Below, in pieces: positions 5,790 through 10,542 of a stretch of DNA of 64,000 bases. The stretch's first letter is position 1. Each line of letters starts with the position of its first letter. This DNA is from an uncultured Pelagibacteraceae bacterium. Lineage in GTDB: Bacteria; Pseudomonadota; Alphaproteobacteria; Pelagibacterales; Pelagibacteraceae. The position numbers were made by a program, and so were the translations under genes. The stretch lies in assembly GCA_902622805.1 (NCBI GenBank), contig CACNRG010000002.1, positions 1-64,000 of the forward strand, written 5' to 3'. The notes beneath the pieces are model-generated. The model was not told the origin of the DNA. It did not search any database and saw nothing but the letters and a program-made list of their open reading frames with translations.

Positions 5790-6521
5790 GTGAAAAATTT
5801 ATTTTTATTAATTCTTATTTTTCCATTAACGTCATGCGGTAAAAGTGAATTAAACTGGCTAATCTTATCACCAAACAATGTTGAAGGATTAACAAATCTA
5901 AAGTTTTTATTAAGTGGTTTAACGACTACTATATACATTAGTGTAGTTTCGATTGTTATCTCAATAATTATTGGTCTATTAGTTGCAATTCCATCTTTAG
6001 CTAAAAATAAATTCTTAACCTACCTAAACATTGGATATGTTGAAATTGTAAGAGCAGTACCTTTGCTAGTTTTAATTTTGTGGATTTATTACGGTCTACC
6101 AATCATGACAGGTATTAGTTTTAGTCCATTTGTTTCTGGTATCATCGCATTATCAATAAGCGAAAGTGCCTTTCAAGCAGAAATATTTAGAGCAGGAATT
6201 AATTCAATAAAAAAATCACAATGGGAGGCTGGAAGCTCTTTAGGATTAAGTTTTTTTAGAAAATTAAAATTAGTTATTCTTCCTCAAGCGATAAAAAATA
6301 TCTTACCAGCTATTGGTAATCAATTTGTGTATGTGCTTAAAATGTCCTCTCTTGTATCGATAATTGGTATTGGAGATTTGACTAGAAAAGCTAATGAATT
6401 AGTTGTGACAACTTATCGGCCACTCGAAATATATACATTTTTAATTCTAGAATATTTAGTTTTGATATTAATAGTTTCTTATTTGGTTAGAAAATTAGAA
6501 AAGAAACTACAAAAGGATTAA
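5790..6521 (+). CDS. Amino-acid ABC transporter permease with lipoprotein-like N-terminus
   Basis: This is an inner-membrane permease of the HisM/GlnP type with about five membrane helices. The cytoplasmic EAA loop that docks the ATPase is clear: EAGSSLGLSFFRKLKLVILP, about residues 150-170. The start is GTG at 5790, with AAAGAG just upstream. Unusually, residues 1-16 read MKNLFLLILIFPLTSC, a bacterial lipoprotein signal with lipobox Cys16, placed before the normal permease start. No ATPase gene follows, because the next gene is on the other strand. The partner ATPase must lie upstream of soxB or elsewhere. The stop codon abuts the stop of the convergent lipoprotein gene with no spacer. Confidence 0.9.
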   Translation: MKNLFLLILIFPLTSCGKSELNWLILSPNNVEGLTNLKFLLSGLTTTIYISVVSIVISIIIGLLVAIPSLAKNKFLTYLNIGYVEIVRAVPLLVLILWIYYGLPIMTGISFSPFVSGIIALSISESAFQAEIFRAGINSIKKSQWEAGSSLGLSFFRKLKLVILPQAIKNILPAIGNQFVYVLKMSSLVSIIGIGDLTRKANELVVTTYRPLEIYTFLILEYLVLILIVSYLVRKLEKKLQKD

Positions 6522-7097
6522 TTATAGACCTTTATAATATTTGCATTCACTAGAATAATAATTCAATTTTTTTTGAATCATCAATGAAAAATTAATGCAA
6601 TTATCTTTTTCTAAAAATAATCCAATTGTTGAAGTATCCTCACTGTCATCAGTTTTGTAATTAAAATAATAGAATGGAGTAATTGTTTTTGTTTGAGTTA
6701 TTTCTTTAAATTTCTCATCATATTTTAAATGAAGCTCATTAAAAATTTCACATTTTTTTTTATTTTCACTTAACATTTCATCCATAAATTTTAAAGTAGT
6801 TTCAGATGGTTTTGACTCTTTGATGGCATTTCCAAATGCATTACAAGCAAGTATAGATCCACCTATTAATGAATACATTCTTGAAAGAGATGGTTCAGAT
6901 AAAATTTCAATTACTTTATCTCTAGGTGTTTGTTCATTAAGCCTATTTGAAAATTGAATTTCATAAAGCTTATTACTAATATCAACATTTAGATATTTTT
7001 TGACTTCACTAACGTCTTTTTCACTGACATTATTATTATCCTCTGAACATGAAGTAAATAAAATACATGTCAATAATAGACATAAGATTTTTTTCAT
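6522..7097 (-). CDS. Predicted lipoprotein of the TerB-associated membrane cluster
   Basis: I do not recognise this 191-residue protein. It begins with a lipoprotein signal, MKKILCLLLTCILFTSC, with Cys17 as the probable lipidated residue, followed by an acidic Asp/Asn/Glu linker. The rest looks like a soluble, mostly helical domain with cysteines near residues 85, 138, 167 and 186. It is the last gene of a four-gene - strand cluster, 2 bases after the coiled-coil membrane protein gene. It probably acts in the periplasm, on the inner or outer membrane, as the envelope-facing part of that system (inference). Confidence 0.75.
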   Translation of the reverse strand: MKKILCLLLTCILFTSCSEDNNNVSEKDVSEVKKYLNVDISNKLYEIQFSNRLNEQTPRDKVIEILSEPSLSRMYSLIGGSILACNAFGNAIKESKPSETTLKFMDEMLSENKKKCEIFNELHLKYDEKFKEITQTKTITPFYYFNYKTDDSEDTSTIGLFLEKDNCINFSLMIQKKLNYYSSECKYYKGL

Positions 7098-7099
7098 AT

Positions 7100-7978
7100 T
7101 TATTTCAAAAATCTACAATGATTTTGTTTTAAATCGGTAAATTGTTCCTTGTTAAAACCATTATTTATATACTTGTTTGGAACATTAAAATTTGAATTAG
7201 AAGTACCCAAATTAAGATCTACTAAATCGAGTTTTGCAATTTTGTAAAAATCTACATAACAATCAACCGACATTGGTTTTGTCGCATTTAAGTCTTTGAA
7301 TTTGTATCTTGTCATTACCCTTAAATTTTTATTATTTACCCTTACTACTTCTTCATTAAATAAATAATAGTTTTGAACTGCATTTTCATTTTTTTTCTTA
7401 ATATCTTCTAGCTTTTTAATTGTTTCTGCTCGTTCACTACTTTCTTGTTCTAATTTATTTATCTTATTTTCAAGTTCTTGCTGTTTATTTAAAGAAGCGA
7501 GTACTTCAGATTCATATGATTCAATTTTACCAACAGACTTTTCGAGTTCTTCTTTTTGAGCAATTATTTGCTCAGCTGTTTTTTCAATTTTTCCAGCAAG
7601 TTCTTTATTTTTATTTTTTTCATTTTCTAAAGCTTTTTCAGCTTCATCTAATTTTTCTATAGCAATTTGATTATCACCTAACATTTGAAGCTTTCCTATA
7701 GATTTTGATATACCACTATTGGATATTGCAGCGTTTATTTTATCTTCAATTACTCTTTCTTGAACTACAGCAACTCTTTTTAATATATAATGCTTATGTA
7801 ATAATGAATAAGCCCAAGCCAAAAGTACAGCCAATAGCCCTATAGCGATTAATATCAAAGCCCAGGAGCGAGCATTTATCCAAAAACTTTTTGCTCTTCT
7901 TAGTTTACTTTGTTCATCAATATATTTATTTACAGGTGAATAGTCATTTTCATTTGTTGATGATAATTTTTCACTCAC
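7100..7978 (-). CDS. Single-pass membrane protein with long coiled coil
   Basis: This is an unrecognised 292-residue protein. A charged N-terminal tail of about 37 residues is followed by one membrane helix (about 38-61, WALILIAIGLLAVLLAWAY). A helical segment follows, then a long coiled coil rich in Glu, Lys and Gln (about 98-205). The C-terminal domain of about 85 residues has two cysteines (VDCYVDF and NHCRFLK). Topology suggests the coiled coil and C-terminal domain lie in the periplasm, though this was not computed. It sits one base after the larger coiled-coil membrane protein and two bases before the lipoprotein gene, so the three are surely co-transcribed. Confidence 0.75.
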   Translation of the reverse strand: MSEKLSSTNENDYSPVNKYIDEQSKLRRAKSFWINARSWALILIAIGLLAVLLAWAYSLLHKHYILKRVAVVQERVIEDKINAAISNSGISKSIGKLQMLGDNQIAIEKLDEAEKALENEKNKNKELAGKIEKTAEQIIAQKEELEKSVGKIESYESEVLASLNKQQELENKINKLEQESSERAETIKKLEDIKKKNENAVQNYYLFNEEVVRVNNKNLRVMTRYKFKDLNATKPMSVDCYVDFYKIAKLDLVDLNLGTSNSNFNVPNKYINNGFNKEQFTDLKQNHCRFLK

Positions 7979-7979
7979 T

Positions 7980-9536
7980 TTATTTCTTATCTTTATCTTT
8001 TTCGTTATAAATCATAGGACCTTTTTTTATTACTTCAGGATCATCAGTTGGAAAAGGAACGTGTACAAAAACTTTTTTTTCAACTTCTTTAGGTACTTCT
8101 ACCTTCTGAATAACAATTTTTTCCTCAACAACAGGTTTCTCTATTATTTTCTCTACTATTTTTTCTACCTCTACTTCAACCGTTTTTATCTTTGGTTTAA
8201 AGAGTCTTTTAATTGACTCCCAAATATATTTGTTAATCAATATTGGGACTCTAACAAAATGTCTTTTTACAGGTTTGTTTCTTAGTTCATGCATTTTTTC
8301 ATCTTGCAAATGAAGACCTGCTAAAGCAACCCCTGTTCCTATTACAGCTATGACTAAGGCTAAACCACCAAACCAAATAGTAAATGCAAAATCTAAATCC
8401 TCCTGATTAACTTCAGTAATTTTATAAGTTTGATCATCACCGCCTAGCCATGTAGCTCTATTTTTTATTCTTAATGTTATCCTGTAAATAGGGTTAGCTT
8501 GCATCAACTTCTTAGCTTCTTTTTCTTGATCTATAAGAATTTCCTTTTTTGCTTTAATTTGATTATTTATTGATTCAGTAGATTTACTTACATTTTCTTT
8601 TTCCACTGATAAACTTTTTATGCTTTCATTAAGTTTAGAAATACTTTGATCGATTGGTGCTAATAAAGCATCATATTTTTTATCAATTATTTTTTGTTTT
8701 CCTTCATCCTTACCAGATGTTTTTCTTAGTGCATTTTGATATTCACGATCTAATTTTTCAATTTCTCTCTCAAATTTAGAAATATTATCGTCATATTTTT
8801 TTATATCTCTTTCAAGCGATTTTCCCACAGCATTTAAACCTCCAAAAACTCCTGTTATCTTGGTGTTTGTTTTTCTATCTTGAGCTTGCGATTTTAAAAT
8901 TTTTTCTGCCTCTAATTGTTTTTCTTTTTTTTCTCTTTTTTCTTTAATTGATGCAAGAACTGAATTATCAACACTGTATTCATCTTTAAGCAATGTTAAC
9001 TCTTTAGATCTATCAGTTTCAATTTTACTTTTATTATTTAATGCATCTGAAAGCTGACCATTTAATCTTTCAATATCATTATCTAGTTTATTGGTATCTA
9101 GTTTAAAACTTAATAGTTTTAAATCTTCTCTTGTATTTTCAATTTTTTCTCTTTGTTCATCAACAATTAAAATTCTATTGTAATAAGATAAATCAAAAGC
9201 TTGAATTATTGTTTCAAAAGTTGAGTAATTTGCAAATAAAAGTAATAAAATAAATAAAGTTCTCCAGATCCACCTAGTTGAATAATATAAAGCTATTGCT
9301 AATGGAATTTTCGTAATTTCCATCGCAGCTACAACTACAAGTGCAAGCACTATTACATAAGTATCTGGTCCTCTTTCTGCTAATAAATCTGTAAAATTAA
9401 AAAGATAAGCTATTGCTAAACTTACGCAGGCAACCAAAATTTCAATACCCCAAGCTAAATATATTAATTTTTTACCCCAAGGAGCAGTTCTAGATTTTGG
9501 AAAAAATCTACTATGAATTCTCTCTAAGTTGTGCAT
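7980..9536 (-). CDS. Multi-pass membrane protein with central coiled coil and Val/Glu/Lys repeat tail
   Basis: This is an unrecognised 518-residue protein. Three membrane helices lie near the N-terminus (about 23-46, 58-83 and 87-106). A long coiled coil runs from about 120 to 350 (runs such as EKREKKEKQLEAEK), and a fourth helix lies near 385-410 (WFGGLALVIAVIGTGVALAG). The cytoplasmic-looking tail carries a low-complexity repeat (VEVEVEKIVEKIIEKPVVEE) and ends in a short Pro/Asp segment. If all four helices cross the membrane, the coiled coil and the tail lie on opposite sides. It overlaps the TerB-like gene by 26 bases, which suggests translational coupling. It may be a scaffold or sensor spanning the inner membrane (inference). 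Confidence 0.78.
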   Translation of the reverse strand: MHNLERIHSRFFPKSRTAPWGKKLIYLAWGIEILVACVSLAIAYLFNFTDLLAERGPDTYVIVLALVVVAAMEITKIPLAIALYYSTRWIWRTLFILLLLFANYSTFETIIQAFDLSYYNRILIVDEQREKIENTREDLKLLSFKLDTNKLDNDIERLNGQLSDALNNKSKIETDRSKELTLLKDEYSVDNSVLASIKEKREKKEKQLEAEKILKSQAQDRKTNTKITGVFGGLNAVGKSLERDIKKYDDNISKFEREIEKLDREYQNALRKTSGKDEGKQKIIDKKYDALLAPIDQSISKLNESIKSLSVEKENVSKSTESINNQIKAKKEILIDQEKEAKKLMQANPIYRITLRIKNRATWLGGDDQTYKITEVNQEDLDFAFTIWFGGLALVIAVIGTGVALAGLHLQDEKMHELRNKPVKRHFVRVPILINKYIWESIKRLFKPKIKTVEVEVEKIVEKIIEKPVVEEKIVIQKVEVPKEVEKKVFVHVPFPTDDPEVIKKGPMIYNEKDKDKK

Positions 9537-9954
9537 ATGCTTTTGGTTTTATTTCCATAAGTTTACTAAAAATTGATTCTTTTAATTTAAATACTTCTGC
9601 AACTTTTCTGATTAAAACATCTTCACGTTCATCATAAACATGATCACTATGAGCAAGTTTATACAATACTGCTATAATGAACTCTAAAAGATCTTTTTCT
9701 TGATTTCTTACGTATTTTTTTACTCTTTCAGCATGATAAATTACGTCCTGTTTATCTTCTTCTGCAAGTTCCATAACTTTTAGAACAGATCTTTTTTCTG
9801 ATTCTGAATGACATGGAAGAACTTTTAAAATTTCATCCTTTTCTAAAGAAGAAAAATGACCATCTGCTAAACATAGTTTTACTGATATTACAATTATACC
9901 AACCATGCATATTGTCTGATCACTTTCACCACGATGCATTTCCCAAATATCCAT
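9511..9954 (-). CDS. TerB-like (tellurite-resistance/stress) domain protein
   Basis: This 147-residue soluble helical protein resembles the TerB family. It has two related halves, each with an acidic turn: ADGHFSSLEKDEI at residues 30-42 and AHSDHVYDEREDVLI near residue 107. The acidic clusters match the metal-binding positions known in TerB. TerB domains are reported in membrane-associated stress-sensing complexes. Here the gene heads a cluster with two coiled-coil membrane proteins and a lipoprotein, which fits a cytoplasmic regulator of a membrane assembly. None of the other ter genes is present in the window. ATG codons at residues 6 and 17 are alternative starts. Confidence 0.75.
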   Translation of the reverse strand: MDIWEMHRGESDQTICMVGIIVISVKLCLADGHFSSLEKDEILKVLPCHSESEKRSVLKVMELAEEDKQDVIYHAERVKKYVRNQEKDLLEFIIAVLYKLAHSDHVYDEREDVLIRKVAEVFKLKESIFSKLMEIKPKAYAQLRENS

Positions 9955-10020
9955 AACTTCAAAAGTTAAAGTTAAACAGATTTTAATATTCTATGATAGA
10001 TGCTAAAATTATTGAGAAAT

Positions 10021-10542
10021 CTAATTTTTTTTACGAAAATCCCAAGGAAATTCAAATTTCATGTCCCATAAGCCTAATTTATTATTTTTCGCAAATTCTT
10101 GATCCTCTGCATATTTTTTTTTTGAATATCTTGGATAATCAAATGCATATCCATTTCTAACTAAAATACGTGACAAGCTTTTTTGTTTTACAAAACATTC
10201 GCCTAATTTTCGTTTATATCTGTCAGGTTTTGCCTCTATTTCACAAATAACTTTATGATTATTTATCGCTTTAATCAAAAAAGCTTTTGATAATTTACCA
10301 CAAGAAATTCTTTCATCTTCTTTGAAACATATTTGTTCTTTGCCCTTATAATAACTTTCTGGTGCATCGATTCCTGAAAATCTTATTTTTTCTCCATTAA
10401 TTTTAATTGTGTCACCATCCACAACAAAAGCGTTTCCTTCGATAGTCTTAGTCTCTTGAGATTTAACTTCTAAATACGTGAAGAAGAAAAATATTATAAA
10501 GACACTAGTGAGTAAAAAGACTTTTATTTTGTTTGAAAACAT
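10021..10542 (-). CDS. Secreted or membrane-anchored staphylococcal-type nuclease
   Basis: This is a 173-residue nuclease of the SNase/thermonuclease family. The hydrophobic residues 7-24 are a signal peptide or anchor, so the enzyme acts outside the cytoplasm. All expected active-site positions are visible: Asp42 and Asp44 (VVDGDTI), Arg54 (IRFSGIDAPE), Asp59, Glu62, and a later Arg in DRYKRKLGE. It would cut DNA or RNA in a Ca2+-dependent way, perhaps to scavenge phosphate or nucleotides (inference). The gene starts inside the 3' end of the MATE exporter gene (38-base overlap), so the two are probably expressed together. Confidence 0.88.
   Translation of the reverse strand: MFSNKIKVFLLTSVFIIFFFFTYLEVKSQETKTIEGNAFVVDGDTIKINGEKIRFSGIDAPESYYKGKEQICFKEDERISCGKLSKAFLIKAINNHKVICEIEAKPDRYKRKLGECFVKQKSLSRILVRNGYAFDYPRYSKKKYAEDQEFAKNNKLGLWDMKFEFPWDFRKKN

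Follow-up and report, generated by a model that had tools for sequence, protein, structure and literature searches.

The question raised by this locus is whether a tight run of genes in an uncultured Pelagibacteraceae bacterium (SAR11) constitutes a system of its own and, if so, what such a system might do. The run lies in a 64,000-nucleotide stretch of contig CACNRG010000002.1 (assembly GCA_902622805.1), referred to here as the window, and encodes a TerB-like protein, two membrane coiled-coil proteins, named A and B in the following, and a lipoprotein. SAR11 is the most abundant bacterial group of the ocean and is under heavy phage attack. The conserved core of the run is formed by three genes, TerB-A-B (TAB), and represents a previously undescribed system, in which A and B make up two likewise undescribed protein families. 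Its role is less certain: judging from sequence and genomic context, we tentatively favor a barrier to the entry of phage or other foreign DNA, in which a trans-envelope scaffold would cooperate with a periplasmic nuclease.

Four open reading frames were indeed present on the minus strand where an earlier note on this DNA had placed them, with the overlap of 26 bases between TerB and A and the gaps of 1 base between A and B and 2 bases between B and the lipoprotein gene that it had described (Table 1). The same note regarded the four genes as one unit, which holds for TerB, A, and B, as these are kept together, and not for the lipoprotein, as detailed below. The order TerB-A-B recurs in about 30 SAR11 loci, which occupy several sites in the chromosome, and this repetition indicates that real genes rather than chance open reading frames are present. 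Within SAR11 the order is maintained nearly without exception (L056 and L071 carry A-B without a detected TerB), and TerB is located beside A in almost all loci having readable upstream sequence. Nevertheless, the cassette is not a general SAR11 trait, but an inserted one: A was detected in 13 of 397 Pelagibacteraceae genomes (about 3%), all 13 with TerB-A-B. A scan of 84,980 species for A yielded 34 loci, nearly all of them in SAR11 single-cell or metagenome genomes, the few others belonging to Marivita, a Rhodospirillales metagenome-assembled genome and a short contig filed as Flavobacteriaceae. Outside SAR11 the association is less regular: L086 contains A-B with a convergent TerB-like open reading frame, L068 and L072 contain A-B, and in L087, L130, and L131 A is present with neither B nor TerB detected. 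Therefore, A seems to be a wider family and TerB-A-B a SAR11-centered assembly. The stand-alone A protein of L087 (817 amino acids, L087:7908-10361) adjoins what look like pst/pho phosphate-uptake genes. The two outcomes that had been named in advance as speaking against a joint system, i.e., genes that do not stay together or known families with unrelated roles, were not encountered, and literature searches revealed no description of the gene set. The conservation and linkage of the cassette genes are thus well supported.

Table 1. Positions of the cassette, its genes and predicted protein parts in the window.
Feature	Position	Strand	Remarks
TerB gene	9511-9954	minus	147 amino acids; first gene of the three-gene core
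Protein A gene	7980-9536	minus	518 amino acids
A coiled-coil hairpin	8463-9203	minus	about residues 112-358; predicted periplasmic
A cytoplasmic tail	7983-8303	minus	Val/Glu/Lys repeat; candidate TerB docking site
Protein B gene	7100-7978	minus	292 amino acids; GTG start
B C-terminal domain	7103-7402	minus	beta sheet and helix, predicted periplasmic; two invariant cysteines
Lipoprotein gene	6522-7097	minus	191 amino acids; FTSC lipobox; cargo slot 3' of B
SNase gene	10021-10542	minus	66 bases upstream of TerB; signal sequence; probable linked partner
Inserted cassette, extent	6522-10020	none	closed junction in L090, L091, L092, L093, L095

The insertion could be delimited by comparison with relatives. 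In five of these without TAB, the genes for an ABC permease and the SNase are convergent and their stops overlap by 4 bases, whereas in the window the two genes are separated by 3,499 bases. A sixth relative, G002, carries a methyltransferase-like gene at the same junction (L094:2234-2857), which marks the junction between permease and SNase as a site for different cargo. Moreover, the lipoprotein is orphan cargo in a variable slot after B. Searching 246 other Pelagibacteraceae genomes returned no match. The gene is absent from L027/L040, and its product belongs to no family in Pfam, NCBIfam, PHROGs, or PADLOC beyond weak signal-peptide noise; in G406, the A protein of which is 99.8% identical to that of the window, B ends directly at the neighboring permease gene and the lipoprotein is lacking. 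Accordingly, it was rejected as a core member. In other loci the slot after B is occupied by an SNase gene, a membrane protein of 104-106 amino acids, a secreted protein of 513 amino acids, Sel1-repeat proteins, or arrays of secreted proteins of about 195 amino acids. These arrays, whose tandem members start with ADDIRDFEIEG, amount to 43 copies in 9 loci (L044:10527-13724, L045:10526-13917, and also L049, L050, L055, and L063-L066); one copy was scanned and gave no Pfam match. This variety of cargo, together with a glycosyltransferase domain fused to B in one locus, would fit competition at the cell surface, B and the cargo proteins serving as recognition modules between neighboring cells. 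Such a role appears very unlikely, since the predicted orientation of A and B is toward the periplasm rather than the cell exterior, and no recurrent toxin-like or secretion-system gene was seen.

With respect to the individual proteins, the first gene product was correctly described as TerB-like: it matched PF05099 with E=9.9e-13 and 48.9 bits in the Pfam profile search, well above the curated gathering cut-off of 24.4. In this it resembles the tellurite resistance (Ter) systems, which differ from the cassette by their terC, terD, or terZ partners. A Ter operon was rejected, as TerB is here accompanied by A, B, and often an SNase rather than by TerC/TerD-type partners; the single TerC gene seen, near L064-L066, looks like chromosomal backbone because the same neighbors occur near L057. 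A weak NCBIfam match (E=0.005) linked the cassette TerB to DjlA, a DnaJ protein of the inner membrane that contains a TerB-like domain and takes part in the Rcs envelope-stress pathway (PMC11709261). In both, a TerB-like domain is located at the inner membrane on its cytoplasmic side; however, the cassette TerB possesses neither a J domain nor a membrane span, and neither A nor B matched DjlA.

The description of A and B as membrane coiled-coil proteins with four spans and one span, respectively, was confirmed by hydropathy and charge. In A the positive charges fit an N-in/C-in topology, according to which the coiled coil is periplasmic and both ends, like the loop between the second and third spans, are cytoplasmic. 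AlphaFold2, supplied with an alignment of 29 sequences, modeled A as a long helical hairpin with a mean pLDDT (predicted local distance difference test) of 77.9, while the pTM (predicted template modeling score) of 0.46 gives low confidence in the overall arrangement. The helices of the hairpin comprise residues 89-145, 149-227, 234-318, and 320-358, the turn at 228-233 being of low confidence, so that each arm is predicted to measure about 115 residues or, if straight, roughly 17 nm. Thus, A is predicted to reside in the inner membrane and to send a hairpin of about 17 nm into the periplasm. Its cytoplasmic tail is unstructured in the model (low pLDDT) and ends with a conserved motif of the type VHVPFPTDDPE in almost every complete A protein from SAR11. 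A miniature A of 152 amino acids with four spans and without the coiled coil is encoded between TerB and A in two loci (L044:7542-8000 and L045:7542-8000).

For B, one span (residues 42-60) and an N-in/C-out charge pattern were found. Its coiled coil varies in length, with SAR11 relatives of B having 171-826 amino acids in total, and its length showed no correlation with that of the coiled coil in A (rho -0.28, p 0.19). The C-terminal domain was modeled with good scores (pLDDT 89.2, pTM 0.77; AlphaFold2), and T31, C48, Y49, and C96 are invariant in it among 24 sequences; the two cysteines may form a disulfide. Foldseek returned no match for the domain at E<=0.001 in PDB and BFVD, and the best VIA-align comparison with known folds (Z 4.5) was unconvincing. 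In the predicted arrangement B is positioned beside A and presents the two-cysteine domain in the periplasm. In L053 (9773-11467), which belongs to the same genome as L033, a Glyco_trans_1_2 glycosyltransferase domain is fused to or recombined with B in place of its usual end, followed by sugar-modifying genes.

Both proteins remain unrecognised by curated families, as the earlier note had stated. Searches against Pfam, NCBIfam, PHROGs, and PADLOC gave nothing beyond weak coiled-coil noise for A and no family beyond weak noise for B, and scanning 29 A proteins singly did not change this; weak matches to SMC, tape-measure proteins, LmuB, and JetC reflect coiled-coil composition. DUF4407 (PF14362), a multi-span coiled-coil family which we take to be a look-alike of A, gave no profile match that would confirm the resemblance: when 29 A proteins were scanned, none listed it at E<=0.05, and the window's own genome contained no match either, so that the family is set apart from A at the level of profile searches. 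Whatever the function of the cassette, A and B therefore represent two families without a curated description, and the C-terminal domain of B has no clear structural match.

The anatomy of A and B invites two other explanations. On the one hand, the general layout of a multi-span protein with a single-span periplasmic partner is that of energised machines such as ExbB-ExbD, MotA-MotB, or ZorA-ZorB, and A contains invariant charged residues in or near its spans (E32, E73, K76, and E108) as well as a weak PADLOC match to ZorA. This match, however, is confined to residues 255-364 of the coiled coil, no MotA/ExbB/TolQ Pfam match was obtained for the 29 A proteins, and the span of B (SWALILIAIGLLAVLLAWAY in the window) contains no D or E, although such machines need an acidic residue there. 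Zorya likewise pairs a single-span partner with a multi-span protein that bears a long coiled coil, but A lacks a MotA-like domain and its coiled coil is predicted to be periplasmic, not cytoplasmic. Since both defining features, the MotA/ExbB/TolQ domain in A and the acidic residue in the B span, are missing, membership in Zorya or the MotA-ExbB stators was rejected and an energised machine is very unlikely. On the other hand, the A hairpin and B might tie the inner membrane to the cell wall or outer membrane as a tether or stress sensor, with TerB passing signals of envelope damage into the cytoplasm and the SNase being a mere genetic neighbor. The anatomy of A and B fits a tether, the TerB-like domain of DjlA operates in the Rcs envelope-stress pathway (PMC11709261), a PrsW protease gene is found near TAB in a few loci, and some distant A relatives occur alone, without TerB, B, or SNase. 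This explanation is nearly as likely as the entry barrier and thus likewise possible rather than probable; it leaves unexplained the presence in about 3% of genomes, the several insertion sites and, as described in the following, the second SNases and the allele swapping seen in A and B.

The SNase gene had been overlooked when the boundary of the unit was drawn, and it probably belongs to it: genomic linkage suggests that the SNase is a partner of the cassette. The window SNase matched PF00565 with E=1.9e-17 and 64.1 bits (cut-off 21) and retains the catalytic signature DGDT...R..GIDAPE. Among 61 relatives, 51 contain one SNase gene and none contains two, whereas a second SNase is found directly beside TAB in G432, G354, G078, G200, and the genomes of L056, L058, and L071, in which the cassette occupies other sites. 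Two SNases, one of the pair beside TAB, were present in 4 of 14 TAB genomes from unselected searches as compared to 0 of 59 (Fisher p=9e-4), or in 7 of 18 TAB genomes when loci picked for a nearby SNase were included (p=1e-5), the TAB and non-TAB groups in this comparison not being matched for phylogeny. Moreover, in 13 loci an SNase is located within about 0.8 kb of TAB, on the same strand in all 13. In a tree of 34 SNases, that of the window falls into a 13-row branch (support 90/93) together with five of six TAB-linked second copies, and this branch stands apart from most closed-site SNases. As the start of the window SNase still resembles the closed-site gene of G014 (MFSNKIKVFLLTS), its mature part appears to have been replaced by recombination. 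The adjacent SNases of L041 and L060 are of the ordinary kind, which makes the link between TAB and SNase common, not obligatory.

An exported nuclease with an intact catalytic signature could also serve the scavenging of extracellular DNA, the cassette displaying or regulating it in order to gain phosphorus or nucleosides. SAR11 lives in nutrient-poor water, and the distant A protein beside apparent pst/pho genes would be in line with such a role. Yet many TAB loci have no SNase, recurrent nucleoside-transport or phosphatase genes beside TAB were not seen, and allele swapping of the kind described below is seldom seen in nutrient genes, which makes scavenging unlikely.

Furthermore, pairwise comparison of loci revealed that the alleles of TerB/A, B, and SNase are swapped between loci whose flanking genes show much higher similarity, a conclusion that is well supported. 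When the window is compared with L040, identity reaches 99% for A and 96% for TerB, but drops to 70% for B. The reverse applies to L040 and L041, with 49% identity for A, 52% for TerB, and 94% for B, the neighboring permease, SBP, MATE, and sox genes being 91-96% identical. L041 and L042 share 91-93% identity in A and TerB as compared to 47% in SNase. Protein distances of TerB, A, and B are correlated overall (Mantel rho 0.35-0.44, p=0.001), indicating that the parts of the cassette co-evolve with repeated exchange. Allele replacement at a fixed site would be typical of frequency-dependent selection, as in phage-facing genes, and swapping and the nuclease link lean toward defence rather than shape or stress.

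The entry-barrier reading is favored because of the patchy presence, the site-specific insertion, the swapping of modules, and the linked exported nuclease. Following this, we propose that TerB would bind on the cytoplasmic side, possibly to the V/E/K tail of A, that A and B would touch and form a trans-envelope stalk able to sense or hold an intruder, and that the exported SNase would cut DNA crossing the envelope, the sensing parts being diversified by recombination. With somewhat less confidence still, TAB and SNase might constitute a new kind of immune machine, in which the stalk recognises the phage and directs the exported nuclease onto the incoming genome, and recognition parts are exchanged among SAR11. 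A comparable principle, if the entry-barrier reading holds, is found in SNIPE, a membrane-bound nuclease by which phage DNA is cut during injection (PMC13190303): both have a nuclease at the membrane and variable envelope-facing parts (PMC13190303). SNIPE unites DUF4041 and GIY-YIG in one protein, whereas the cassette consists of separate genes with an exported SNase; neither domain was found in the cassette proteins, and membership in SNIPE was thus rejected.

Several observations weigh against an entry barrier. More than half of the TAB loci have no SNase nearby, so that the nuclease is not obligatory, and TerB was not detected beside A-B in L056 and L071. The 13-row SNase branch does not reach the starred support level, and four of its members are core SNases; being a SAR11 core gene, the SNase may have a housekeeping role. 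The neighbors of TAB are mainly housekeeping genes, known defence systems showed no enrichment beside TAB, and the PADLOC matches among 75 neighbors are isolated. Finally, no relatives of A or TerB were found in the viral contigs of IMG/VR and none of A in phage records, for which reason phage origin or carriage was also rejected. Literature searches returned little on defence systems in small SAR11 genomes; as an envelope cassette that is conserved and swappable and comes with a nuclease, TAB would provide a concrete candidate for such a system.

Further genes were seen in the vicinity of the cassette. In 8 related loci (L063:3383-4876 and others), the gene for a secreted protein with a caspase domain (Peptidase_C14) lies upstream of TAB at a distance of a few kb, and L086 has a trypsin-like protein near TAB. 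The caspase, trypsin-like, and array proteins were rejected as members of the core because they are largely confined to a single group of related loci and hence provide no independent evidence. A lipoprotein of about 88 amino acids, not present in the window, adjoins TAB in 13 loci, mostly just upstream of TerB (e.g., L044:6788-7054). The ABC permease bordering the cassette (window positions 5790-6521) starts with a lipobox-like LTSCGKS, which is unusual for a permease and is conserved in relatives.

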